Source: Deltaproteobacteria bacterium
GTDB lineage: Bacteria > Desulfobacterota > Binatia > Binatales > Binataceae
Direction of reading: 5' to 3'
DNA length: 40,726 nucleotides
Assembly (NCBI GenBank): GCA_021801125.1
Contig: JAJYYI010000093.1
Location: forward strand, 1 to 40,726
Below are positions 19,588 to 32,039 of this stretch, piece by piece (position 1 is the first letter of the stretch; each line of letters begins with the position of its first letter). A model generated the notes under the pieces. The model was not told where the DNA came from, did not search any database, and worked only from the letters and a program-made list of their open reading frames with translations. A program made the translations under genes and the position numbers.

Positions 19588-20982
19588 ATGCGCCAATTGG
19601 TGTCGCGGATGGAAGCACGCAAGGACGATCGATTGCAGGAGGCAACGCCGGCCAACGAGATGGCGAGCGCGAATCCGGATCATTCTCGCCATGCCGCGGT
19701 GATCGCGCCGGGTACGATCCGCTTGCCGATCCACTTTTTTGTTTTCTGCGTGGTCTGCTTTGCGAGCGGATCGGCTGCCTTGCCTTGGGTTGCACCCAGA
19801 GCAGTTCGGTTCTTCTACCAACCGGCGGTGTTGAGCCTGGTTCACCTGTTCGCGCTGGGTTTTGTCACCCCGACGATCATGGGCGTTATGTACCGGTATG
19901 TGCCCGCACTCACGCATCGGCGGGTCGCCTTCCCGCGTCTTGGCGCGCTGCAGTTTGGATGCTACGTCGTGGGCGTGGCCGGCATGGTTGCGCATTTTGC
20001 TATCGGCGAATGGTCCGGGTTGTGGTGGGCCGCCGCGCTGGTGCTCGTGAGTGTAATCCTTTTCGCAATCAATTTATTTCCGCCGCTCTGGTCGAGAGTA
20101 GGACGCGCGGCCGTTGAAACTGGCATGTTCGCGGCGATCTGCTTTCTGCTGCTAGCAGCAGCGCTCGGCGTTCTGATGGGGTTGGAAGAGACGTACGGCT
20201 TTCGCTGGGGCAATCTCGTCACCCACCTGGGCGCTCATGTCACGTTTGCCGCGATCGGCTGGGTGACGCTCACCATTTGCGCAGCCTCGTTCCGATTCGT
20301 AAGCGCTTTTGTTCTGCCGCGAAGATCGCTCATGCGGTTTGCTCGTTGGCAAATCCTTGCGCTCGCGTTCGGAACGATCGGGCTTGGCGTCTCGCTTTTG
20401 TTGGATCGAGCCGCGGCAGGGGCGTGGAGCGCCGTCGTGGTCGCGGCGCTGCTTGGCTATATAGTCATCATGGCGGGTGTGGTGCATAGCCGCCGAGTGG
20501 CTATCGACTGGGATGTGGCTCACGCGCTGGCCGGGCTGCTTTGGCTAAGCGCGGCGGTCGTGCTTGGCGGGGTTGTGGCATGGTGTGGAGCCTGGAGCGC
20601 AACGGGTGCACCGTTTGCGGGAGCGCTGGGGGTTGCTGCGCTCCTCGGGTGGGCCGGCAATTTTATTATCGGCATGTCCTACCGCTTATTTCCTGGTTTC
20701 GTCGTCGGGGTGAGAGCGGCCCTGCAATATCCTCGACGGGGAGTGACCCACCTATCGGTCAAAAGCCGCCGTCCGCTGATCTTCCTGGTATTTAATGGTG
20801 GCGTACTCGCGCTCGGCGCGGCGTTCATCATTGGCGCGTCTCGGCTCGCCGCGTTCGGAGGATGGCTCGTGTTGTTTGCGGTTCTTCCTTACACTGTCGT
20901 TACCTGCCGGACGTTGAGCTACGCGTATAGACGGGCAGTCCGTATCGCGACTCAAACAGACCTCCAGGAAATGTCCGGTTGA
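19588..20982 (+). CDS. NnrS / heme-copper-oxidase-like 12-TM membrane protein
   Basis: 464 residues with about 12 transmembrane helices. Helix-borne His residues lie in SLVHLFALGFVTPTIMGVMY and THLGAHVTFAAIGWVTLT, with a later WAGNFIIGMSYRLFPGF. These motifs recall a little-studied branch of stand-alone proteins annotated as 'cbb3-type subunit I-like' or NnrS-like, which keep several heme-ligand His but no full heme-copper active site. From sequence alone I cannot tell electron transfer from NO sequestration. It ends the NO-type gene run. ATG 19588 is the longest start; ATG 19612 is equally possible, as neither has a good ribosome site. The 163-nt gap upstream could hold its own promoter. Confidence 0.65.
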   Translation: MRQLVSRMEARKDDRLQEATPANEMASANPDHSRHAAVIAPGTIRLPIHFFVFCVVCFASGSAALPWVAPRAVRFFYQPAVLSLVHLFALGFVTPTIMGVMYRYVPALTHRRVAFPRLGALQFGCYVVGVAGMVAHFAIGEWSGLWWAAALVLVSVILFAINLFPPLWSRVGRAAVETGMFAAICFLLLAAALGVLMGLEETYGFRWGNLVTHLGAHVTFAAIGWVTLTICAASFRFVSAFVLPRRSLMRFARWQILALAFGTIGLGVSLLLDRAAAGAWSAVVVAALLGYIVIMAGVVHSRRVAIDWDVAHALAGLLWLSAAVVLGGVVAWCGAWSATGAPFAGALGVAALLGWAGNFIIGMSYRLFPGFVVGVRAALQYPRRGVTHLSVKSRRPLIFLVFNGGVLALGAAFIIGASRLAAFGGWLVLFAVLPYTVVTCRTLSYAYRRAVRIATQTDLQEMSG

Positions 20983-21841: not shown

Positions 21842-23143
21842 ATGGCCGATCCGGTCGTTTTTGAAGCGCTCGTCAACCGCGAAAATGTGATGTCAAGCGC
21901 GGAAAACTTTGTGCTTCATCTGCTGCTTCAAGCCACCGCGCAAGCAAAAGGCGAAGGCGCAAACGGGGTCCGTCTGCCGCTCAACCTCGGTGTGGTCATT
22001 GACCGCTCGGGCTCGATGTACGACGAACGGCGCCTGGAATTCGTGGTTGATGCGGTAAAGTTTCTCGTCGATAACCTGGAGCCCGACGACCGCGTGGCGA
22101 TCGTGGCGTTCGCCGATTCGGCTCATCTCGTTGCCGGAGGCGACCAGATTCGCGACAAGGAAGCAGTCAAGCGGGCGATTGACGATATCGACATGTTGGA
22201 GATCGGTGGCGGGACGCAGATGGCCCTCGGGATGAAGGCCGCGATTGAAGAGGTGAAAAAGAACCTCGCGGCCAGCCGGCTTAACCGAGTGCTGGTGCTG
22301 ACCGACGGCCAGACGTACGAGGAAATGTCTTGCCTCGAACTGGCGCGCGCCAACAAAGATCAGATGTCGTTTTCTGCGATGGGCGTGGGCGCCGAGTTCA
22401 ACGAGAAGCTGCTGATGCAAATCGCGCAAGACAGCGGCGGCAAGTATCATTATATCGGCGATTCGGCGGAGATCCCGCAGATTTTCGAGGACGAGCTTCA
22501 AGGGCTAAGAGCGGTTACCGTGCGCAATGGGCGTTTCGACCTGACCCTTTCGCAAGGAGTACAGATTCGCGAGGCCTTTCGCGCTAGCCCCGAGATTTAC
22601 TCGCTGGGCGAGCCGCTTTTGGACGCAGACCGCAAGATCAGCTACGTGGTTGGGGACCTCGAAGGGGGTGTCCCAGCCGCGGTGTTGCTAAGCTTGGTCC
22701 TGCCGCCGCGCAAGCCAGGCGTGGTGCGGCTGGCCCAAGCGGCTTTTCGCTACGAGGTGCCGGGTGTCGGTGACCGCGTGATTTCCGGTGACGTTACCGT
22801 CAACTACACCCTGGACCGAGCCCAAGCGAGCAGCAAGCCCAACGGTCGCGTGATGAATCTGGTTGACCAGGTCGCGATCGCCAAGCTTCAGGCTAAGGCT
22901 GAAGAAGAATTCAAACAGGGCAACGTCGACCGCGCGACAAAGCTCCTGACCAATGCTATCGCTAGCACGCAAAAGGTCGGGAACGTCAAAGCGACTCAGG
23001 CGCTGGCCGGCTTCATGGACCAGATAAAGAAGACTCAGACGCTCGAGAGCAAAGCCGCGAAGACGACGCTGTTGCAAGCTCAGGCGGTGGTGCGCAAAAC
23101 TCAGATGCTCGACCCCGAGGCCCTTAAGGATCTCGAGCAATAG
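21842..23143 (+). CDS. VWA-domain protein, first gene of the phospho-signalling island
   Basis: 433 residues, no signal peptide. Residues about 46-230 form a von Willebrand A domain with an intact metal-dependent adhesion site: D54-x-S56-x-S58 (VVIDRSGSM), T125 (GGGTQMAL) and D155 (LVLTDGQT). A beta-rich middle (about 230-340) follows, resembling other VWA proteins of the YfbK/inter-alpha-inhibitor type. The C-terminus is a long helical region containing two TQ-rich repeats (KKTQTLESKA, RKTQMLDPEA) that could be kinase targets. GGGAGATCC precedes ATG 21842. FHA, kinase and PP2C genes follow on the same strand, so it may be an effector or adaptor controlled by threonine phosphorylation. Confidence 0.9.
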   Translation: MADPVVFEALVNRENVMSSAENFVLHLLLQATAQAKGEGANGVRLPLNLGVVIDRSGSMYDERRLEFVVDAVKFLVDNLEPDDRVAIVAFADSAHLVAGGDQIRDKEAVKRAIDDIDMLEIGGGTQMALGMKAAIEEVKKNLAASRLNRVLVLTDGQTYEEMSCLELARANKDQMSFSAMGVGAEFNEKLLMQIAQDSGGKYHYIGDSAEIPQIFEDELQGLRAVTVRNGRFDLTLSQGVQIREAFRASPEIYSLGEPLLDADRKISYVVGDLEGGVPAAVLLSLVLPPRKPGVVRLAQAAFRYEVPGVGDRVISGDVTVNYTLDRAQASSKPNGRVMNLVDQVAIAKLQAKAEEEFKQGNVDRATKLLTNAIASTQKVGNVKATQALAGFMDQIKKTQTLESKAAKTTLLQAQAVVRKTQMLDPEALKDLEQ

Positions 23144-23226: not shown

Positions 23227-23838
23227 ATGATCAAGTGCAGCGAATGTGGTTACGAAAATACCGAGGGTCTGGACTACTGCGATAGCTGCGGCGCCACGCT
23301 AAGCCACAGCGCTGGAGGGGCCGAGCCGGCGGCTGCCGAACCGGCGCCGACGGCACCCGCCGCACCGGCCGCCGAGGCCGAGCCCGCCGCGGCCGAAGCT
23401 GCCTCAGCAGAGCAAGCTCAGGAAGCTCCGGCGCTCGCCGCCGAGGAGCCCCCCGCAGCGCCGCCAGCCCAGGCTGCGGCACCAAGTCTTGCCCCGGGCG
23501 TCAAGGTTAAGCTCAAGATCGTGCGCGGTGGTCGCAAGGGACAGGAATTCCCGCTCGAGGATGGGAATAATCTCGTCGGACGTTTTGATCCCGAAAGCGG
23601 TGCGTTTCCGGAAGTTGACCTTGAGGCCGATGACCCCGAAGCAAAGATCTCGCGCAAGCATGCCTTGATTAGGGTCGAGAACGGCAAAATAACGATCGAA
23701 GACATGGGCAGCCTCAACGGTACTTACGTCAACCGCGCGCCGCGGTTGCAGCCTGGACAGCCGGTCGAGCTCAAGGGCGGGGACGAGATCATAGTCGGCA
23801 AGACGTTCTTTCAGGTAGTCGTCGAAGCCCCGAGCTAA
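23227..23838 (+). CDS. Zinc-ribbon plus FHA-domain protein
   Basis: 203 residues in three parts. A four-Cys zinc ribbon lies at the N-terminus (C4-x2-C7-x10-C18-x2-C21). A linker of about 70 residues made almost only of Ala, Pro and Glu follows. Residues about 94-203 are an FHA domain with GR (VGRFDPES), SRKHALI and GSLNGTYVN, the full phosphothreonine-binding set. FHA domains dock onto phosphorylated partners, here most likely the neighbouring VWA protein or kinases. The zinc ribbon has the same spacing as that of the pseudokinase-PP2C protein two genes on. It lies 83 nt after the VWA gene. Confidence 0.92.
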   Translation: MIKCSECGYENTEGLDYCDSCGATLSHSAGGAEPAAAEPAPTAPAAPAAEAEPAAAEAASAEQAQEAPALAAEEPPAAPPAQAAAPSLAPGVKVKLKIVRGGRKGQEFPLEDGNNLVGRFDPESGAFPEVDLEADDPEAKISRKHALIRVENGKITIEDMGSLNGTYVNRAPRLQPGQPVELKGGDEIIVGKTFFQVVVEAPS

Positions 23839-23936: not shown

Positions 23937-25568
23937 ATGGCGTTTGAACCGCTTCGCGCCGGCTATTTGCTCGACAATCGTTATCGAATTGAGAAGGTCC
24001 TCGGCGAAGGGGGTATGGGACGGGTTTATCTCGCCCGTGACACGCGCCTCTCCGACCGTGCAGTCGCAGTCAAAGAGATGCACGTCGGAGAGGGAATTCA
24101 AGAGCAGAAAGCGGTCGAGGATTTTAATCGCGAGCGCGATATCCTGGCGCGCCTCTCTCACCCAGGAATCCCCGGCATAATTGACTACCTAGCGCTGGAG
24201 CGCCGGCATTATCTGGTGATGGAATACATCCCCGGCGGCGACCTGCAGGGGCGTCTCGACAAGCTCGGTCCCAACGGCCGACTTCCGGAGAACGTTGTGC
24301 TACAATGGGGGAGCCAGATACTGGACGTCCTGAGTTTTCTCCACGCCCAGCAACCACCGATAATTTACCGCGATCTTAAACCCGCCAACATAATGATTGA
24401 CGAAAATGGGCGTGCGATGCTGATTGATTTCGGCATCGCGCGTTTCCTGCCGCCCGGAGGGCGCGGGACTCAGATAGGATCGGTGGGCTACGCGCCGCCC
24501 GAGCAGTACATGGGAAAGATTGAGCCACGCTCTGACCTCTATGCGTTGGCTGCGACGATGCACCATTTGCTGACCGGGCGCGATCCTCAGTTGGAGCCGC
24601 CGTTCAGCTTTCCGCCTGTGCGCCAACTGGCCCCCGCGGTGTCGGAGCATACCGAGCGTGTGCTCATGCAAGCGCTGGACAAAGACGTCAACAAGCGGCC
24701 GCCTTCCGCGCAAGCAATGCTTGCCGCGCTTCTTGATCCGCGCTTGGCGGGCGCACCGGGCGGTTGGCCCACAGCGACGCAGTCCTCGGCCAACCAACCT
24801 TTCGTGTTGCCCGCTGCCTCCGGTGCGGCACGCCGGCAGCTAAATACCAACGAGAACACCGCCGTCGTCACCGGACCGTCGAGCGGGCAGATAATCACGG
24901 CGCATGAGCCCACTAAGATCGTCGCCCCGTCGTCCTCTGCGCCGCCGGCTCCTCATGTCTCCCCCAACGCCAAGACGCAGGAGTTGCCCCATCTGCGCGC
25001 TTCGTCGCCGGCCCCCTCAACGGGTGCGGCGTCGCGGGTTGTCCCGCCGGCTCGTCCTGTTTCGCCAGGCACGCCGTCAGCGCGACCGGTTGTACGCCCC
25101 GCTCCGGCGGCTCCGACGGCGCCAGCCCCTAAGCCGCGGCCGATCCCGAGCCGCCCTGCGATGCCGCCGCCGGCTCCCAGGCGGCCGATGGCTTCACCCA
25201 ATGCGCAAAGTCAAAGGGCATCGACCCGGGCAACCGCAGCCGCGTCTGGCCAGGCCCGTCTGGTCGCGCATGGAGAGGCGATAGAGTTTGCGCTTCACGG
25301 CGATTGCACGATTATCGGGCGCAAGGATGGCAGCGCGGACCAGGTGGATGTCGACCTATCGCGCCTCAGGCGAAGCACGGGCCTTGTTTCACGGCGTCAC
25401 GCCGAGATCATCAAACGCGGAAGCGACTATTACATCCGTGATCTGGGCAGCCGCAACGGAACCTATCTGGTCGGCAAAGGACGGCTAGGCCGCGACCAGC
25501 TATATAAACTTAACGACCGCGATAAAGTGGCGTTCGCCGACACCGCCCTTGAATTTCGAAAGAGCTAA
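23937..25568 (+). CDS. Ser/Thr protein kinase with C-terminal FHA domain
   Basis: 543 residues. The Hanks-type kinase domain (about 10-270) is complete: GEGGMGRVY loop, K46 (AVKEM), E66, catalytic YRDLKPAN (D146, N151) and metal-binding DFG (D164). It is followed by a Pro/Ala/Ser-rich linker of about 160 residues and a C-terminal FHA domain (IIGRKDGSADQ, VSRRHAE, GSRNGTYLV). No membrane helix is present, so it is cytosolic. A kinase that carries its own FHA can bind its phosphorylated activation loop or substrates and so sustain a signal. The next gene starts 19 nt downstream, showing co-expression with a phosphatase. Confidence 0.95.
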   Translation: MAFEPLRAGYLLDNRYRIEKVLGEGGMGRVYLARDTRLSDRAVAVKEMHVGEGIQEQKAVEDFNRERDILARLSHPGIPGIIDYLALERRHYLVMEYIPGGDLQGRLDKLGPNGRLPENVVLQWGSQILDVLSFLHAQQPPIIYRDLKPANIMIDENGRAMLIDFGIARFLPPGGRGTQIGSVGYAPPEQYMGKIEPRSDLYALAATMHHLLTGRDPQLEPPFSFPPVRQLAPAVSEHTERVLMQALDKDVNKRPPSAQAMLAALLDPRLAGAPGGWPTATQSSANQPFVLPAASGAARRQLNTNENTAVVTGPSSGQIITAHEPTKIVAPSSSAPPAPHVSPNAKTQELPHLRASSPAPSTGAASRVVPPARPVSPGTPSARPVVRPAPAAPTAPAPKPRPIPSRPAMPPPAPRRPMASPNAQSQRASTRATAAASGQARLVAHGEAIEFALHGDCTIIGRKDGSADQVDVDLSRLRRSTGLVSRRHAEIIKRGSDYYIRDLGSRNGTYLVGKGRLGRDQLYKLNDRDKVAFADTALEFRKS

Positions 25569-25587: not shown

Positions 25588-27765
25588 ATGATCACGTGCC
25601 CTCAATGTGGCCAAAGCGCGGCGGACGGAACTCGCTTCTGCGAGCGATGTGGCCGTCAGTTGCTTGAGTCCGACAGCGGCCCGACCTTGCCTCCGCTTGA
25701 ATCCGGCCGCGAGCTTGGGCACGGCTACAAAATTGCCGAAGTCCTAAGCCAAACCAGCGCCGAGAACTGGTATCGCGCGGTTCAAAGCGAACCGCAAGGT
25801 TCCGAGCGCCGTGTTCTGATTCGCGAACGGCTCGGTCCGTCTACCACCGACTCGGTGCTACCCAAACAAGTCGTTGGCGAGGCTCCGGCAACGCCGGAAA
25901 CGGACCAAGAAGCGAAACGAGTTGACCCCAAGGCGCCAACCCGCGAACTCCCGCCTATCGCGGGGGCCGTGGCCAAGCCCGACGCAACCGAGACGACGCC
26001 CACGGAAGTCGAGGCCAAGCCTGCGGCGGTTGAAGCGAAGCCCGCGGCGACCGAGGCCAAACCCGAGGCGGACGAAGCTAATAATGTAGAACCCGCGGAA
26101 ACGGGCGAACCGGACTCCGAGACCGTTGAGTTGTCTCCCGCGGAAGCCGTTCAGAGCGAACCGCAACCGGGCGACGAGCCGTCCGTCCCTGACGAAGCGC
26201 CGGATGCTGAATCGGCTGAGACGGTAGCCGCGAAGGACGAGGGGTCGGCGCCGCAGGCCGATGCGCCTGCTAAGACGGAAGCAGAGCCGCCGGACAGCGC
26301 GGGCACCCTGGCGTCGGAGGCCGCGGTTGGCGCGGCTGCCCCGACCGAATCGGGACCGTCGGAGAATTTGGGCGAGCTGTTCGGCCGGGTGCGCGATCTT
26401 TCGCGTACGCTCACTCATCCAGCCTTCCAGCGGGCGCTGGATAGCTTCAGCAATGATGGGCGCGTTTATCTGGCGTATCCTGATGAAGCGCTGATCAAGC
26501 TTTCGGAACGGCCGCAGGGGCTAAAAATGAGCGAGCCGCGCGCGCTCAGCGTAGCGATTCAGGTATGTCAAGCGGTCAGCTTTATCCACAAGCGCGGCTT
26601 TCGGATGAACGATATCTGCCCGGATTCCGTGGCTATAGCGCCCGACGGCCGGGTGAAGCTCACCGGCCTGGACTGGATCACGAATGACAACGAGATAGCA
26701 GCGGATCCGCTGATAAGTGACGGGTACACGGCGCCCGAAGTCTATCGCGGCCGGCGGGTCGACAAGCGAGCGGATATTTTTTCCGTCGCTTGCCTGTTGT
26801 ACACGAGCCTGACCGGCGAGCGGCTCGAATGCGAGACATGGCTTGAAGAAAGTGCGCTGGTGCGCTTTTATCCACCCCATGTGGTGAGCCCGCCGCTGGA
26901 AAAGGTTGTGCGCCGTGCGTTAGCGTTTCGTCCCGAGGATCGCTATCCGACAATCGACGAGTTTAAGGCCGAACTGGTGAAGCTTAACTCAACCATACGT
27001 CTGCGCTCCGCCTCCATGACCGACGTCGGCATGGTCCGCGAGCTGAATGAGGATTCCATTTTGGCGCTGGAGTATTTCCGCGACTCTTTGATCGAGCCCG
27101 CGCAGTCCTTCCTTTACGTGGTGTCCGACGGGATGGGGGGAGCGGCAGCGGGTGAGGTCGCCAGTGCCATCGCTGTTGCCACCATCCGCGAATACGTCGA
27201 GGCGGCCCTCGGCAAGGAGACGGCTGAGAAGCCGTCGCTGGCCGAGACCGCAATCGGCGCTCTGGAAGAAGCCAACCGCAAGATCATCGAGTATCAAAAG
27301 GTCCATACGGAAGCGCGCGGCATGGGCGCGACCGGGGTGATTGCGTTGGTGCAGCCTCCGAAGGCGACCGTGGCCTGGGTGGGTGACAGCCGCGGGTATC
27401 TGCACGACGGAGGCCGGCTTCGCCAAGTCACGAAAGACCATGCTCTGGTGCAGCGCTTGGTCGATATCGGTCAGATCACGCCCGAGCAGGCGCGCCATCA
27501 TGAGCATAAGAACGTGATCCTGCGGTCGCTAGGAGCGCGCCAGAGCGGCGCGGCTGGGGCTGAAGCCGTCGATTTGATGCTCAAGCGCGGAGACCGGCTG
27601 CTGTTGTGCAGCGACGGCCTTATGGCGCACGTCGAAGACGGCGACATTAGCGAGATCATCGGCCGCCACAGCGAGCCCGCCGACGCTGCGCGCGAGTTGA
27701 TTGTTGCTGCCAACGCGGGCGGAGGTACCGACAATATCTCGGTGATCCTGGTGTTCGCGGAGTAA
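25588..27765 (+). CDS. Zinc ribbon-pseudokinase-PP2C phosphatase fusion
   Basis: 725 residues. A zinc ribbon (C4, C7, C18, C21) is followed by what looks like the first strands of a kinase N-lobe (GHGYKIAEVL, RRVLIRERL). Then comes an acidic Ala/Glu/Pro insert of about 180 residues, then the rest of a kinase fold (about 275-470). The catalytic HRDLKPxN is replaced by RMNDICPDS and the DFG by TGLDW, so the kinase part should be inactive. Residues about 475-725 form a PP2C phosphatase with all metal motifs: NEDS, SDGMGG, GDSRGYL, CSDGL and GGTDNISVIL. The pseudokinase probably senses or tethers, while PP2C removes phosphates set by the flanking kinases. The start at 25588 avoids overlap with the previous gene. 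Confidence 0.9.
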   Translation: MITCPQCGQSAADGTRFCERCGRQLLESDSGPTLPPLESGRELGHGYKIAEVLSQTSAENWYRAVQSEPQGSERRVLIRERLGPSTTDSVLPKQVVGEAPATPETDQEAKRVDPKAPTRELPPIAGAVAKPDATETTPTEVEAKPAAVEAKPAATEAKPEADEANNVEPAETGEPDSETVELSPAEAVQSEPQPGDEPSVPDEAPDAESAETVAAKDEGSAPQADAPAKTEAEPPDSAGTLASEAAVGAAAPTESGPSENLGELFGRVRDLSRTLTHPAFQRALDSFSNDGRVYLAYPDEALIKLSERPQGLKMSEPRALSVAIQVCQAVSFIHKRGFRMNDICPDSVAIAPDGRVKLTGLDWITNDNEIAADPLISDGYTAPEVYRGRRVDKRADIFSVACLLYTSLTGERLECETWLEESALVRFYPPHVVSPPLEKVVRRALAFRPEDRYPTIDEFKAELVKLNSTIRLRSASMTDVGMVRELNEDSILALEYFRDSLIEPAQSFLYVVSDGMGGAAAGEVASAIAVATIREYVEAALGKETAEKPSLAETAIGALEEANRKIIEYQKVHTEARGMGATGVIALVQPPKATVAWVGDSRGYLHDGGRLRQVTKDHALVQRLVDIGQITPEQARHHEHKNVILRSLGARQSGAAGAEAVDLMLKRGDRLLLCSDGLMAHVEDGDISEIIGRHSEPADAARELIVAANAGGGTDNISVILVFAE

Positions 27766-27770
27766 AGCTG

Positions 27771-30170
27771 ATGGCCGTCGGCTCGACAGGCGATCCGTCC
27801 AACACCGGACCGCTGCCTATCGGCTCGAAGCTGCAAGGCCGCTACGTCATCGAGCGCCTTCTCGGGGGCGGCGGCATGGGAGTAGTGTACCTGGCGCGCG
27901 ACGGGCGGCTGGCTAATCGTCCCTGCGCGGTCAAGGAAATGGTCGATCATTTCATCGACCCGCAGCAACGCCGCCAGGCCAGCGAATATTTCGCGCGCGA
28001 AGCCGACACGCTGGCGCGTCTCAAGCATCCCGCGATCCCCTCGATATTCGACCGCTTCGACGACCGCAATCGCCATTACCTGGTGATGGAGTACGTCGAG
28101 GGGCGCAACCTCGAGGAAGAGCTTGCCGCTCTCGGTCATCCGATGCCCGAGAGCACCGTGATCGACATCGCCCGCCAGCTATGCGACGTGCTCTCTTACC
28201 TGCACGATTTTAAGCCGCCGATCGTCTACCGCGACATGAAGCCGTCGAACGTCATGATGACGCCTAGCGGGCGAATCATCCTGATCGACTTCGGTATCGC
28301 GCGGCTGTTCAAGGGAGCCGGCAAGGGCACGATGATCGGCACCTTGGGCTTTGCCCCACCCGAGCAATACAAGGGCGAGGTGGACCCGCGCGCGGATATT
28401 TACTCGCTCGGCGCGACGCTGCACTACGTGGTGACGGGTCGCGACCCGGAGAAGTTTCCGCCCTTCAGCTTTCCGCCGGTTCATGACCTGCGCCCCGACG
28501 TGTCGAAACGATTGGCCGGAGCGATCGACCGCGCCTTGGCGTACAAAGTCGAGGAGCGTCCGCAAACGGTGCACGAGCTGCGCGACATGCTGCTCTACGG
28601 TGTCGGCCTCGAAACGCACGCTGCGCCGGCGGTCAGTCCTCGAAGCGGAACCGCCGAGTTAACCAAGAAGAGGGTCCAGCGGCGCGCCGCTCAGCCGCGT
28701 CCGCCGAAGCGGCGCCGATGGCGGCGCGTTGTCGTACTCGCGGCGGTCACCCTAACTATCGGCGCCGGAGCCTTCGGCGCGACGTACGTTTACCACGATC
28801 CGCAGCTCCAGGCGCAATTGGGGATCAAACCGCTGATCGACAACCTCCCCTGGAAACGCGCCCAGTTGCTGGCGCGAGCGCGGGCTGATCCGTTGAGCTT
28901 GCAGACTCTCTCGATACGGTTAACCTCGCGGGAGGGCTATCCGCTGTCGGTGCCGAAGACGTCCTTTCTGAACACCGACTTTGCCACCTCGCGCTATTTG
29001 GGTTGGACGGCGACGGTGAAGAACAACCTCGCTGGCCTTGAGGCGAGTTCGGAAACGCTTTCGGCGCGCATCTACAGCCCTACCGGGGTCGAGGTCGCGT
29101 CCAGCGAGGACAGCCGATTCATCGGTACGAACCAGAGCGTGGTCGATCTTGGCGGAGTTGCGCTGATGCCGGATTTGGCGGCGGGCCCTTTCGGGGAATA
29201 TCGCATTGCGCTTTACCGCGGCGATCAATTGCTCGGGGAACAGAATTTTTCCGTACAGGAAGATATCGAGGCGAAGGCCAAGGCTCAGGCTGAGCAGGCG
29301 GCGGCGCGCGCGGCGGCCGAGGCCGAGAAGAAGAAACAGCAAGCGGAGGAGATGCGCTTGGCCGCTATCGAGCAGGCGCGGCGTAAACCGCTGACGTTGC
29401 AAAGCCTCGAGTTTCTTAATACCACCAAGACCGGGACGCCGCTTTCCGGCTACAGCAGCACGTTCAACGCCTCAAAGGTGTTGTTCGTGGCGTGGGAGGC
29501 GAAGTTCAAAAACCACCTGTACAATCTCGACACCGGGCAGTACCGCGTCGATGCCGCGTACGTCGCTCCGGACGGGCGCGTGCTCGGTAGCGTCAGCGAT
29601 TACAAGGTAGTTCCTCCCAACGCCAAGTCGATTGATTTCACCGGCCGTATCGGCAATGCGGCCGGCGGCGCCTTTCTGCCCGGCACTTACACAGTGAATT
29701 TTTATCTCGACGGAAAGTTCCTGGCCGAGAAAAAGTTTCAAATTATCGCGGACACGGGCCCGCGCGGCAATTTCGCTATTCGCGGCGGAGGTCCCACGAT
29801 TCCTCGAGGCGGCGGAGGGGGCGTTGTTGGCGGCAGTGGTGGAGGTGGAAACGCCAGTGCTAGGCTCGACTCGCCTCTGGTTGCCAGCGGCAAAATCGAG
29901 GGTTTGGCCGGTACACAGGAGGCGCCAATCGAGGTGCGCCTAAGACCTCAACCGAACAGCTTCCTGCGCGGGGAGCTCGTGATTCATTATCCGGGGTACG
30001 GAGTTACGGCGCTCAGCGGCTTCGTGCGCGGCGAGCATATCGAGTTTGAAGTAGCCTACGGAAGCAGAATCCTCTATTTCGAGGGACGCAAATCCAACGG
30101 CACGCTGAGCGGGGTTTTTCAGTCGCAGCCGTCTGGGACCACGGGGACCTGGAGAGCCGATATCAATTGA
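27771..30170 (+). CDS. Transmembrane Ser/Thr kinase with duplicated outer domains
   Basis: 799 residues. Kinase domain at about 23-280: GGGGMGVVY, K55, YRDMKPSN (D155, N160), DFG (D173), all intact. A basic stretch and one membrane helix follow at about 320-341. Outside are two copies of a beta-rich domain (about 375-497 and 540-661), joined by an Ala/Glu/Lys coiled coil (498-538), then a Gly-rich stretch (671-694) and a C-terminal beta domain. The two copies share L-T/S-L-Q-S/T-L openings, a W-x-A-x-x-K-N-x-L-x-x-L core and G-x-Y-x-x-x-x-Y/F endings. This is a PknB-like layout with a new sensor. ATG 27771 lies 5 nt after the phosphatase stop, with GGAG overlapping that stop. Confidence 0.93.
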   Translation: MAVGSTGDPSNTGPLPIGSKLQGRYVIERLLGGGGMGVVYLARDGRLANRPCAVKEMVDHFIDPQQRRQASEYFAREADTLARLKHPAIPSIFDRFDDRNRHYLVMEYVEGRNLEEELAALGHPMPESTVIDIARQLCDVLSYLHDFKPPIVYRDMKPSNVMMTPSGRIILIDFGIARLFKGAGKGTMIGTLGFAPPEQYKGEVDPRADIYSLGATLHYVVTGRDPEKFPPFSFPPVHDLRPDVSKRLAGAIDRALAYKVEERPQTVHELRDMLLYGVGLETHAAPAVSPRSGTAELTKKRVQRRAAQPRPPKRRRWRRVVVLAAVTLTIGAGAFGATYVYHDPQLQAQLGIKPLIDNLPWKRAQLLARARADPLSLQTLSIRLTSREGYPLSVPKTSFLNTDFATSRYLGWTATVKNNLAGLEASSETLSARIYSPTGVEVASSEDSRFIGTNQSVVDLGGVALMPDLAAGPFGEYRIALYRGDQLLGEQNFSVQEDIEAKAKAQAEQAAARAAAEAEKKKQQAEEMRLAAIEQARRKPLTLQSLEFLNTTKTGTPLSGYSSTFNASKVLFVAWEAKFKNHLYNLDTGQYRVDAAYVAPDGRVLGSVSDYKVVPPNAKSIDFTGRIGNAAGGAFLPGTYTVNFYLDGKFLAEKKFQIIADTGPRGNFAIRGGGPTIPRGGGGGVVGGSGGGGNASARLDSPLVASGKIEGLAGTQEAPIEVRLRPQPNSFLRGELVIHYPGYGVTALSGFVRGEHIEFEVAYGSRILYFEGRKSNGTLSGVFQSQPSGTTGTWRADIN

Positions 30171-30271: not shown

Positions 30272-31258
30272 ATGGCCAGCACGCTTTCCCGCGAAAAATT
30301 AGTTTTCTACGGCGCGGCCGGGGCCCTTGGCGGACTGGCCGCCTGGGGAGCGGCTGAGGCGTTCCTGGGTATTCGGAACGTATACGCCCGCGACCTCGTT
30401 TTGGGCGCGTTAATAGGCGCCTTCATCGGCGCTTTTTTGGCCTCGATCGAGGCGTTGAGCGTGGGACAGCGCCGGCTGGCGCTGCGCGGCATCCGTGTCG
30501 GCGGTTTGATCGGAGCCTTAGGCGGAGCGCTAGGCCTGTTGGTTGGCGAGATTGGCTTCGATGTGTTAGGCGGGCTGGTCGGACGTATCGTTGGTTGGGC
30601 GGTGCTCGGGGTGGTAGTCGGTTTCGGCACCGGTTGGGCGTCGCGATCCAACGCGCGCATTCGCAACGGCGCACTGGGCGGGTTGGTTGGCGGCGCTTTG
30701 GGCGGGTTCTTGTACCAGGCGCTCACGACTATCCTGCCGCAGCTGCTGGCGCGACCGATCGCGCTGGTGCTTGCGGCAAGCGGAGGGCCGGGTGGCGCGG
30801 GCGCGGCAGCGGCCGGCGCTGGCCTAAGCAGCGGCGACGTAATGAACGTGGCGCAGATGCTCGGGCGGGCGATAGCGATCATCGTGCTCGGCGCGCTGAT
30901 CGGCTTTTTCATCGGCTTGGTGAGTGAGCTGCTGAAGCAGGGATGGCTGATGGTCGTGCGCAGTCGAAGCCGCAACGCGCGAGAGGGCCGCGAATACTCT
31001 CTGCTTAAGCAGGTCATGTCGATCGGGCGTGCCGAGGAATGTGACGTCGGTTTGTTCGGCGACCAGACCGTCGCACCTCGTCATGCCGTGATACGGCGAG
31101 AGGGGCGCAACTTCTACATAACGCCGAGCGGAGGCGCCCAGGTGCTCATTAATCGGGCTCCGTTGAACGGTCGCCATATGCTGCGAAGCGGTGATAGGAT
31201 CGAGATAGGAGGCACCTTGCTGCTCTTTCGAGAGCGCGTCCAGAGCTCGGCACGGTGA
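30272..31258 (+). CDS. Glycine-rich membrane protein with C-terminal FHA domain
   Basis: 328 residues. The first about 215 hold five or six hydrophobic, Gly/Ala-zipper helices (GALIGAFIGAFLASIEAL, LGGLVGGALGGFLYQ, IAIIVLGALIGFFIGLV). The last 100 form an FHA domain: SIGRAEECDV, TVAPRHAVIRR, NGRHML. The usual N-G-T is N-G-R. It could anchor a phospho-threonine partner to the inner membrane or form a glycine-zipper pore. ATG 30272 directly follows the TAA of a 29-codon frame (30181-30270) that has a good ribosome site. The lipoprotein gene follows 10 nt later. Confidence 0.88.
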   Translation: MASTLSREKLVFYGAAGALGGLAAWGAAEAFLGIRNVYARDLVLGALIGAFIGAFLASIEALSVGQRRLALRGIRVGGLIGALGGALGLLVGEIGFDVLGGLVGRIVGWAVLGVVVGFGTGWASRSNARIRNGALGGLVGGALGGFLYQALTTILPQLLARPIALVLAASGGPGGAGAAAAGAGLSSGDVMNVAQMLGRAIAIIVLGALIGFFIGLVSELLKQGWLMVVRSRSRNAREGREYSLLKQVMSIGRAEECDVGLFGDQTVAPRHAVIRREGRNFYITPSGGAQVLINRAPLNGRHMLRSGDRIEIGGTLLLFRERVQSSAR

Positions 31259-31268
31259 CGCTAGTCAC

Positions 31269-32039
31269 GTGACGTTGAAGAGCCGTTATTGGGCTTACTT
31301 CGGATGGCTTGCCTGGGTGACATTGGCGGGCTGCGCGAGCGCCAAAGGCTCCCCGTCAGTTGCGAATATGCCCAACGCCTCGGTCGAGTCTATCCAATAC
31401 TACCCGCGCTTCGTGAAGGGTTACGAGGACAGTTTTCCGTTGCGTCCGATTATGGTGCTGCTTCCTGTCGACCAGCGAGAGTTCCCTGGGCGCTGGAGCA
31501 GGGACCACCAGCCCTTGAATGGAGACCCGGCGATCGGCGCGGTGTTGGACGCTAAAGGGGACGTTATCAAGAAGCTGTACAGCAAGCCGTTCCTGGACTT
31601 GGTGCAAAAGGCGCTGGGACACGCGGCTGCGGAGGCTGGGATGACCCCGGTCTTCTCGAACCAGACTTCGTACGAAAGCGTCCTGCCGTCTAGTCCACCA
31701 GCCTACGTTCTGGCCAGCCGCGTCACGCGATGCTGGGTGGAAAGAAAGCTGGATCCCAACGGCAATGGCCCAGGAGTCTGGCGCAGCTGGGCCGAATTCG
31801 ATCTGGAGGCGACGGTGTACAGAGTACCTTACCGCGTTCCGTTCTGGCAGACGAAGTCGGTGTCGGTATTCTACGACCCACCTCCTGACACCTTCGATCC
31901 GGGTTTGGCCAGTGAAACCGCGCTCTATGAGACGTCCGGAGAGGTTCTGTCGGTGGCCCTAACGCGAGCGGTCGCCGGAATCTTCAACCACTACCAATTG
32001 CGCAATCTCATTGCACAAGATCGCGTTCTGACACAGTAA
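31269..32039 (+). CDS. Predicted outer-envelope lipoprotein
   Basis: 256 residues from GTG 31269. The N-terminus is a lipoprotein signal (YWAYFGWLAWVTLAGC with lipobox L-A-G-C), followed by a Ser/Asn-rich spacer. The mature part has alpha/beta composition (IMVLLPVDQREFPG, AYVLASRVTRCWVER, YETSGEVLSVALTRAV) and resembles other uncharacterised lipoproteins that form a sheet with a helix, a layout seen in LPS or transport accessory proteins. I do not recognise a named family. It ends the signalling gene run with a 10-nt gap from the FHA membrane protein, so it may be the outer-envelope partner of the transmembrane kinase. Confidence 0.75.
   Translation: MTLKSRYWAYFGWLAWVTLAGCASAKGSPSVANMPNASVESIQYYPRFVKGYEDSFPLRPIMVLLPVDQREFPGRWSRDHQPLNGDPAIGAVLDAKGDVIKKLYSKPFLDLVQKALGHAAAEAGMTPVFSNQTSYESVLPSSPPAYVLASRVTRCWVERKLDPNGNGPGVWRSWAEFDLEATVYRVPYRVPFWQTKSVSVFYDPPPDTFDPGLASETALYETSGEVLSVALTRAVAGIFNHYQLRNLIAQDRVLTQ

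Follow-up and report, generated by a model that had tools for sequence, protein, structure and literature searches.

The stretch of DNA analysed here (the window) comprises 40,726 nucleotides of contig JAJYYI010000093.1 from a bacterium of the family Binataceae. At 25588–27765 on its forward strand, an open reading frame (ORF) with an ATG start encodes a 725-residue protein in which a zinc ribbon, a kinase-like domain, and a PP2C phosphatase domain follow one another, as judged from the ORF call, Pfam, and AlphaFold2. A first-pass annotation of this DNA had given the gene its correct coordinates; the two stretches it quoted, NDICPDS (residues 341–347, 26608–26628) and GLDW (residues 360–363, 26665–26676), are present in the sequence, and the N-terminal zinc ribbon was missing from its description. 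This ribbon (residues 1–26, 25588–25665) holds four cysteines (4, 7, 18, and 21) that are invariant in 23 aligned sequences, and over residues 4–25 it scores just under the cut-off of Zn_Ribbon_1 (24.4 versus 25 bits). Behind it, on the same strand, lie a first piece of the kinase N-lobe with strands β1–β3 (residues 38–85, 25699–25842; structure model, alignment, and profile), a disordered insert between β3 and αC (residues 87–257, 25846–26358; AlphaFold2), the remainder of the pseudokinase with αC, β4, β5, and the C-lobe (residues 258–470, 26359–26997; Pfam, AlphaFold2, and superposition), and the PP2C domain (residues 472–725, 27001–27762; Pfam, superposition, and residue counts). Pfam matches PP2C_2 with an E-value of 1.6e-14 and Pkinase, limited to residues 272–415, with 2.9e-14, and the score against the NCBIfam Stp1/IreP model NF033484 is 224.1 bits, under the curated cut-off of 230.

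In the AlphaFold2 model of the window protein (23 aligned sequences; mean predicted local distance difference test, pLDDT, 72.5; predicted template modelling score, pTM, 0.58), we observe β1 (47–55), β2 (60–67), and β3 (73–82), with a block pLDDT of 87–92 for residues 41–80, followed by residues with pLDDT below 50 (87–226, 229–233, and 235–256) and then by αC (262–274). Because β1–β3, disorder, and αC succeed one another in this order, the N-lobe is split, as had been proposed; the fold does pick up again past the insert, but at about residues 258–262 and not 275, and the insert is 172 residues long instead of the 180 first claimed. With VIA-align, used as a second look at the Foldseek matches, residues 36–468 superpose on PknB (1o6y; Z 24.1, root-mean-square deviation [rmsd] 2.5, 244 aligned), so that the outcome which would have refuted the first-pass annotation, no kinase fold at residues 40–85 or 275–470, does not apply, and residues 472–724 superpose on tPphA (2j86; Z 30.8). 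Once the insert columns are removed, the family profile can be matched over 247 columns to one built from 69 active-type kinase sequences, with a probability of 99.95%; together with the PknB superposition, this match identifies a two-lobed Hanks-type kinase fold. The N-lobe piece 38–85 alone aligns with the start of the active kinases at 71.5%, and five column shuffles reach at most 0.3%. The insert is missing from f5, a sister family of the same class (f1 denotes the window protein's own family): all eight f5 sequences have no residues in the insert columns, and their kinase-like domain is contiguous, with 257–261 residues. The contiguous f5 domain and the profile and structure matches thus indicate that the insert sits between β3 and αC of a kinase that is ordinary in other respects.

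Key columns were counted in 43 distinct sequences including the window protein (35 f1 and eight f5), after a fragment of the window protein (L002) and a gene in two pieces (L083) had been dropped; L051 has no N-terminus, and the β3 and Gly-loop columns were scored in 42. The catalytic roles of the scored kinase and PP2C columns are presumed from known structures. The β3 lysine is found nowhere (Arg in 38 and Ala in four of 42; Arg79 in the window protein), the αC glutamate has given way to Val in 34, Ile in one, and Leu in eight (n = 43; V268), the catalytic-loop lysine to Cys in 35 and Pro in eight (n = 43), the DFG aspartate to Gly in 32, Ser in three, Gln in five, and His in three (n = 43), and the third glycine of the Gly loop to Glu in 42 of 42 (Glu59), and the catalytic asparagine is retained in only four of 43. 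Retained throughout are an acidic residue at the HRD aspartate (Asp in 36, Glu in seven; D342) and the APE motif (43/43), and the third DFG position is Asp in 37, Glu in five, and Asn in one (D362). With lysine and DFG aspartate lost wherever scored, the triad of β3 Lys, HRD Asp, and DFG Asp that marks an active Ser/Thr kinase is broken. The replacement of DFG reported earlier therefore holds in all 43 sequences; of the reported replacement of HRDLKPxN, the loss of the catalytic-loop lysine stands, but the HRD aspartate is not lost, since D342 aligns with it. On the phosphatase side, 13 of the 14 positions examined are invariant in the 43 sequences (residue 581 is Ala in 15 and Ser in 28), so that the motifs are intact, as annotated, and fold and conserved catalytic positions together identify a bacterial PP2C of the Stp1/PstP/tPphA type. 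Mean pairwise identity in f1 is 0.67 for the C-lobe, 0.70 for the PP2C, 0.48 for β1–β3, and 0.25 for the insert; as the C-lobe is conserved almost like the PP2C, the pseudokinase appears to be maintained. We regard it as practically certain that the protein joins to a PP2C a kinase fold whose N-lobe is split by a disordered insert and which lacks most of its catalytic residues.

The gene is the fourth of six on the forward strand. It is preceded by genes for a VWA protein (21842–23143) whose C-terminal tail bears three KTxxL-type sites (23027–23044, 23054–23074, and 23093–23110), a zinc ribbon-FHA protein resembling ArnA (23227–23838; Pfam and a structure-library profile match), and a kinase with a C-terminal FHA domain (23937–25568); it is followed, five bases past its end, by a kinase with one predicted membrane stretch (27771–30170) and then by a membrane protein with a C-terminal FHA domain (30272–31258; Pfam and hydrophobicity). 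Pattern searches find the Gly loop, YRDxKPxN, and DFG in both kinases, and each also has the VAIK lysine, in one as VAVK (by pattern) and in the other as CAVK (by eye). The adjacent kinase is the best kinase match of the pseudokinase in its own genome (31% identity; another elsewhere reaches 30%). The same gene order recurs in f1 and f5, with the kinase-FHA gene absent in nine of nine f5 loci; among the matches listed for six f5 genomes, none spans both the kinase and the FHA parts of the kinase-FHA protein. Across 34 loci examined, we could assign the VWA gene in 28, the zinc ribbon-FHA gene in 29, the downstream kinase in 33, and the membrane FHA gene in 27, most gaps being contig ends; at L045, no membrane FHA gene lies past the downstream kinase, though about 4 kb of DNA is there. 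Beyond the operon, 31269–32039 encodes a 256-residue protein that follows the operon in many f1 loci and matches nothing in Pfam or NCBIfam at E 1, and upstream, 19588–20982 encodes many hydrophobic stretches with a COX1 match below cut-off only.

A long match to the protein occurs in 32 of 34 relatives of the window's family, the exceptions being G011 and G031; in G020 it is divided between two contig pieces. This, with the recurring neighbour order, speaks against a chance ORF or an assembly artefact. Pseudokinase and PP2C are matched together in 10 of 14 f5 genomes (in G057 as two pieces in one frame, in G108 partially), the four without a joint match being G070, G077, G098, and G112; in the other families searched, no match spans both domains among the matches listed. 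In the genome that contains the window (completeness 96%), PP2C_2 is matched once, Pkinase seven times (the pseudokinase counted), and FHA seven times, with three of the FHA matches in the operon.

Within the otherwise variable insert, which by eye is rich in Ala, Glu, and Pro and is 85–172 residues long in the other f1 proteins (41 in L051, itself truncated), ten columns reach at least 80% identity in f1, nine of them at 110–121, around A-K/P-T-x-E/D-L. In the window protein, this motif is APTREL (residues 116–121, 25933–25950; Thr118 codon 25939–25941). The pattern A[KP]Tx[ED]L is found in 34 of 35 f1 inserts versus 0.23 expected from shuffling each insert, a count that, since the relatives share ancestry and the pattern was picked after the alignment had been inspected, is to be read as constraint and not as 34 independent events; the sole miss is the truncated L051, with DKTAEL. 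A similar motif, [AS][KR]Tx[ED]L, lies in the linker of the kinase-FHA protein in all 22 loci with an ORF assigned (AKTQEL, 24969–24986, in the window; L040, assigned otherwise, is left out, and L050 and L066 represent the same protein). The three KTxxL-type sites of the VWA tail are present in 28 of 28 loci, f5 among them. The motif occurs in none of 33 downstream kinases and in none of 27 membrane FHA proteins.

FHA domains bind phospho-threonine. From the motifs in insert, linker, and VWA tail, and from the ArnA-ArnB and MviN-FhaA precedents described below, we infer that the operon kinases write, FHA domains read, and a docked PP2C erases. As a plausible mechanism, the pseudokinase-PP2C would serve as the eraser in an operon of six genes for phospho-threonine signalling: the operon kinases would phosphorylate Thr118 together with its counterparts in the VWA tail and in the linker of the kinase-FHA protein, the operon FHA domains would bind these sites, and the phosphorylated insert would dock the phosphatase on a kinase/FHA/VWA complex, where the PP2C could strip phosphates, its own docking phosphate included, as a negative feedback. 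The pseudokinase would then be a non-catalytic scaffold, and the zinc ribbon might dock on the VWA protein, as the ArnA zinc finger does on ArnB, a step suggested by analogy that is possible but doubtful. A role of the insert in recruiting the phosphatase through FHA docking, as its sequence suggests, has about an even chance of being right, and the explanation as a whole, computed and inferred steps taken together, could equally turn out true or false.

Several further points join the shared ancestry behind the motif count in weighing against this reading. The f5 proteins retain pseudokinase and PP2C without insert or motif, and the fact that f1 has both the insert and the kinase-FHA gene, whereas f5 has neither, amounts to a single evolutionary contrast. 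A looser motif pattern appears in 15 of 29 zinc ribbon-FHA linkers, the window's own being without it. By regular expression, the usual pThr-site pattern fails in the membrane FHA protein in 27 of 27 loci, so this domain may not bind phospho-threonine, and this strict pattern also goes unmatched in 13 of 29 zinc ribbon-FHA proteins and in 10 of 22 kinase-FHA proteins, although by eye the window's own copies of these two fit the site. Finally, FHA ligands of the types pTxxD and pTxxI are known, and the +3 rule is disputed (PMC4037201).

The pseudokinase may alternatively be a sensor, the role named by the first-pass annotation, and in this reading one for nucleotides: bound to ATP or a different nucleotide, yet not catalytic, it would switch the PP2C, with an R79–D362 salt bridge replacing the Lys-Glu pair. 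This idea, which is compatible with docking, is the likeliest of the alternatives and still rather unlikely. The β3 arginine (38/42) and the acidic third DFG position (42/43) recall the DYD pseudokinases, membrane-associated proteins with a β3 Arg, no αC Glu, and an Asp at the third DFG position, for which ATP binding has been modelled (PMC12599244), and the HRD position is acidic in 43 of 43. However, a conserved Glu-Asn takes the place of the Gly loop, the DFG aspartate is gone in every sequence, and R79 and D362 do not co-vary, as four f5 sequences with Ala at the β3 position retain Asp362. The window protein shares with DYD the triplet R79, V268, and D362 but not the membrane association, having no hydrophobic stretch above threshold. 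With the ActPs2 pseudokinases, in which the β3 Lys is Arg, a 32-residue disordered insert lies between β3 and αC, the HRD Asp is Asn, and the protein is membrane associated (PMC12599244), it shares the insert position and the β3 Arg; the HRD position, Asp in 36 and Glu in seven of 43, differs. The substitutions thus resemble DYD and the insert position ActPs2, and the other defining features of both fail. Through the conserved insert motif, the evidence favours a docking scaffold at least as much as a sensor.

A scaffold could also do without phospho-docking, if the kinase fold of the pseudokinase paired with the operon kinases and thereby aimed the PP2C at them, with the motif binding something else or mattering little. 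The eight f5 sequences that keep both domains minus the insert fit this, as does the adjacent kinase being the best own-genome match, though nearly level with a kinase elsewhere; the conserved stretch inside an unconserved insert and the similar motifs in two neighbouring proteins speak against it, and we consider it unlikely. An active atypical kinase, and hence a bifunctional kinase-phosphatase, is highly improbable: the HRD position is Asp in 36 of 43, APE is universal, and bifunctional PP2C-kinases have been discussed (PMC12088040), but none of the sequences scored retains the β3 Lys, the αC Glu, the catalytic-loop Lys, or the DFG Asp, and the catalytic Asn persists in four of 43. A decaying remnant without a role, carried along by the PP2C, would explain the lost catalytic residues and is just as improbable, given the strongly conserved C-lobe and the invariant residues in the former active site.

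The docking reading bears on how a broad-specificity PP2C finds its targets, an open question in bacterial Ser/Thr signalling; with one PP2C_2 match against seven kinase-domain matches, and the phosphatase tied to a pseudokinase and a docking candidate beside presumed kinases and readers, this targeting question becomes directly testable.

The layout had been called rare, a description that finds no support as it stands, in view of bacterial PP2C-kinase fusions, kinetoplastid kinatases, and, as it seems, cyanobacterial PRK14559. The fusions, described in 2005 in Pseudomonas and other bacteria (PMC1262709), likewise carry PP2C and kinase domain on one chain, but with the PP2C N-terminal and a domain called a kinase, whereas the window protein has the reverse order and a dead kinase. 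The kinatases (PMC2175518) also fuse a pseudokinase to an active phosphatase, here predicted to be active, but they are eukaryotic, their pseudokinase domains number two and come with leucine-rich repeats, and their phosphatase is of the dual-specificity type instead of a PP2C. A 2025 survey finds zinc-ribbon and Pkinase domains among PP2Cs (PMC12088040), and a 2025 review of bacterial pseudokinase families (ActPs1-3, GLW, CP1, DYD, and DLHK) does not contain the word PP2C in its available text (PMC12599244). One candidate precedent, PMC9430166, turned out to concern a GAF-PP2C protein, and the available part of PMC2887360 has no kinase-PP2C fusion. Among the matches listed, no title or abstract opening reports a bacterial pseudokinase-PP2C fusion or an ArnA/ArnB-like pair joined with a PP2C; as subscription journals are mostly uncovered, this is weak evidence of novelty.

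The window protein is not a member of PRK14559 (NCBIfam NF011149), scoring 127.5 bits against a curated cut-off of 374 that is exceeded in 21 of 59 cyanobacterial genomes and, as a control, by the Synechococcus elongatus member. Both have an N-terminal zinc ribbon, a middle that is kinase-like by profile, and a C-terminal PP2C; PRK14559 differs in its double zinc ribbon, its far more decayed middle, and a PP2C in a separate clade. No Pfam kinase match was found in the middles of three proteins scanned, one member over the cut-off and two relatives. Against the kinase profile, the PRK14559-type middles (loci L084–L109, with L100, L101, and L103 left out as too little precedes their PP2C) give 95.7% for 23 sequences, 64.9% for the 17 over the cut-off, and 93.5% for the six others, whereas ten column shuffles each stay at or below 0.1% (23-sequence set) and 0.3% (17-sequence set). 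The middle seems to be a strongly decayed kinase domain, although direct comparison with the window family's pseudokinase gives only 5.4–5.6%, which counts against this; the sequence comparisons suggest that the middle of this phosphatase family, which is unannotated, descends from a kinase. A kinase gene follows PRK14559 in four of eight loci examined. A common origin of the two fusions is disfavoured, a single PP2C clade being rejected (p-AU 0.023, 44 rows) with modest backbone support. We propose, tentatively and with more doubt than for docking itself, a self-limiting circuit in which the genome's one PP2C_2-type phosphatase would be recruited by its own phosphorylated insert and would then remove phosphates from sites of that kind, the docking arm occurring in f1 alongside the kinase-FHA gene; proteins of the zinc ribbon-pseudokinase-PP2C type would then make up a so far unrecognised class of bacterial phosphatases that may have arisen more than once, here and in cyanobacteria.

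At the level of the operon, the TerY-P triad similarly has VWA, PP2C, and Ser/Thr kinase genes and a zinc ribbon, but in TerY-P the ribbon lies at the C-terminus of the kinase (PMC11090510), whereas in this operon the FHA and PP2C proteins carry it; no zinc ribbon is matched in either operon kinase, and TerY-P membership is rejected. The PpkA-PppA-Fha module of the type VI secretion system (T6SS) shares a kinase, a PP2C-type phosphatase, and an FHA reader of phospho-threonine (PMC3953482), but has no pseudokinase, and among the operon neighbours examined here we recognised no secretion genes. The CwlM-independent pseudokinase MviN of M. tuberculosis (ActPs3) is phosphorylated in its tail by PknB and then bound by FhaA (PMC12599244), so that, as we propose for the window protein, a pseudokinase becomes an FHA platform once phosphorylated by a neighbouring-type kinase; unlike the window protein, MviN is a membrane protein with its phospho-site in the C-terminal tail and no phosphatase.

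The neighbours have a parallel in Sulfolobus ArnA-ArnB, where the zinc finger of the zinc finger-FHA protein ArnA touches the unphosphorylated VWA protein ArnB, whereas its FHA domain binds ArnB after the C-terminus of the latter has been phosphorylated by ArnC, a kinase (PMC6509490, PMC12852372). The zinc ribbon-FHA protein aligns with ArnA (5a8i) over residues 3–176, zinc finger and FHA domain in full (E 1.9e-11), OdhI/GarA scoring slightly better over the FHA part only (E 1.2e-12). The VWA protein matches ArnB (8s05_A) with E 6.3e-10, its best match being 4fx5 (E 1.7e-11), and Pfam lists no ArnB_C match. For its low-confidence model (pLDDT 56.7), Foldseek ranks 5a8j second and 8s05_A third, the ArnB superposition has an rmsd of 11.9, and ArnB stands at rank 19 of the VIA list, level with many VWA domains. 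The VWA protein is thus a candidate counterpart of ArnB, with its VWA domain, β-sandwich, and C-terminal helix bundle. In four cyanobacterial loci with ArnB-like VWA proteins, a zinc ribbon-FHA gene is adjacent in L123, L124, and L126 and not in L125; SKT[VMI]LQ closes the VWA tail in each of the four. As in Sulfolobus, a zinc ribbon-FHA and VWA pair here stands beside Hanks-type kinases, and where the ArnB C-terminus is phosphorylated, the VWA tail here has its three KTxxL-type sites, known from sequence; the Sulfolobus phosphatase, however, is a PP2A, with no pseudokinase-PP2C (PMC6509490, PMC12852372). These likenesses suggest an ArnAB-like VWA/FHA pair in bacteria. Set beside all these systems, what is new here is a conserved pseudokinase-PP2C, well supported in its fold and residue loss, with a candidate FHA-docking arm, evenly balanced between right and wrong, in a putative writer-reader-eraser operon.

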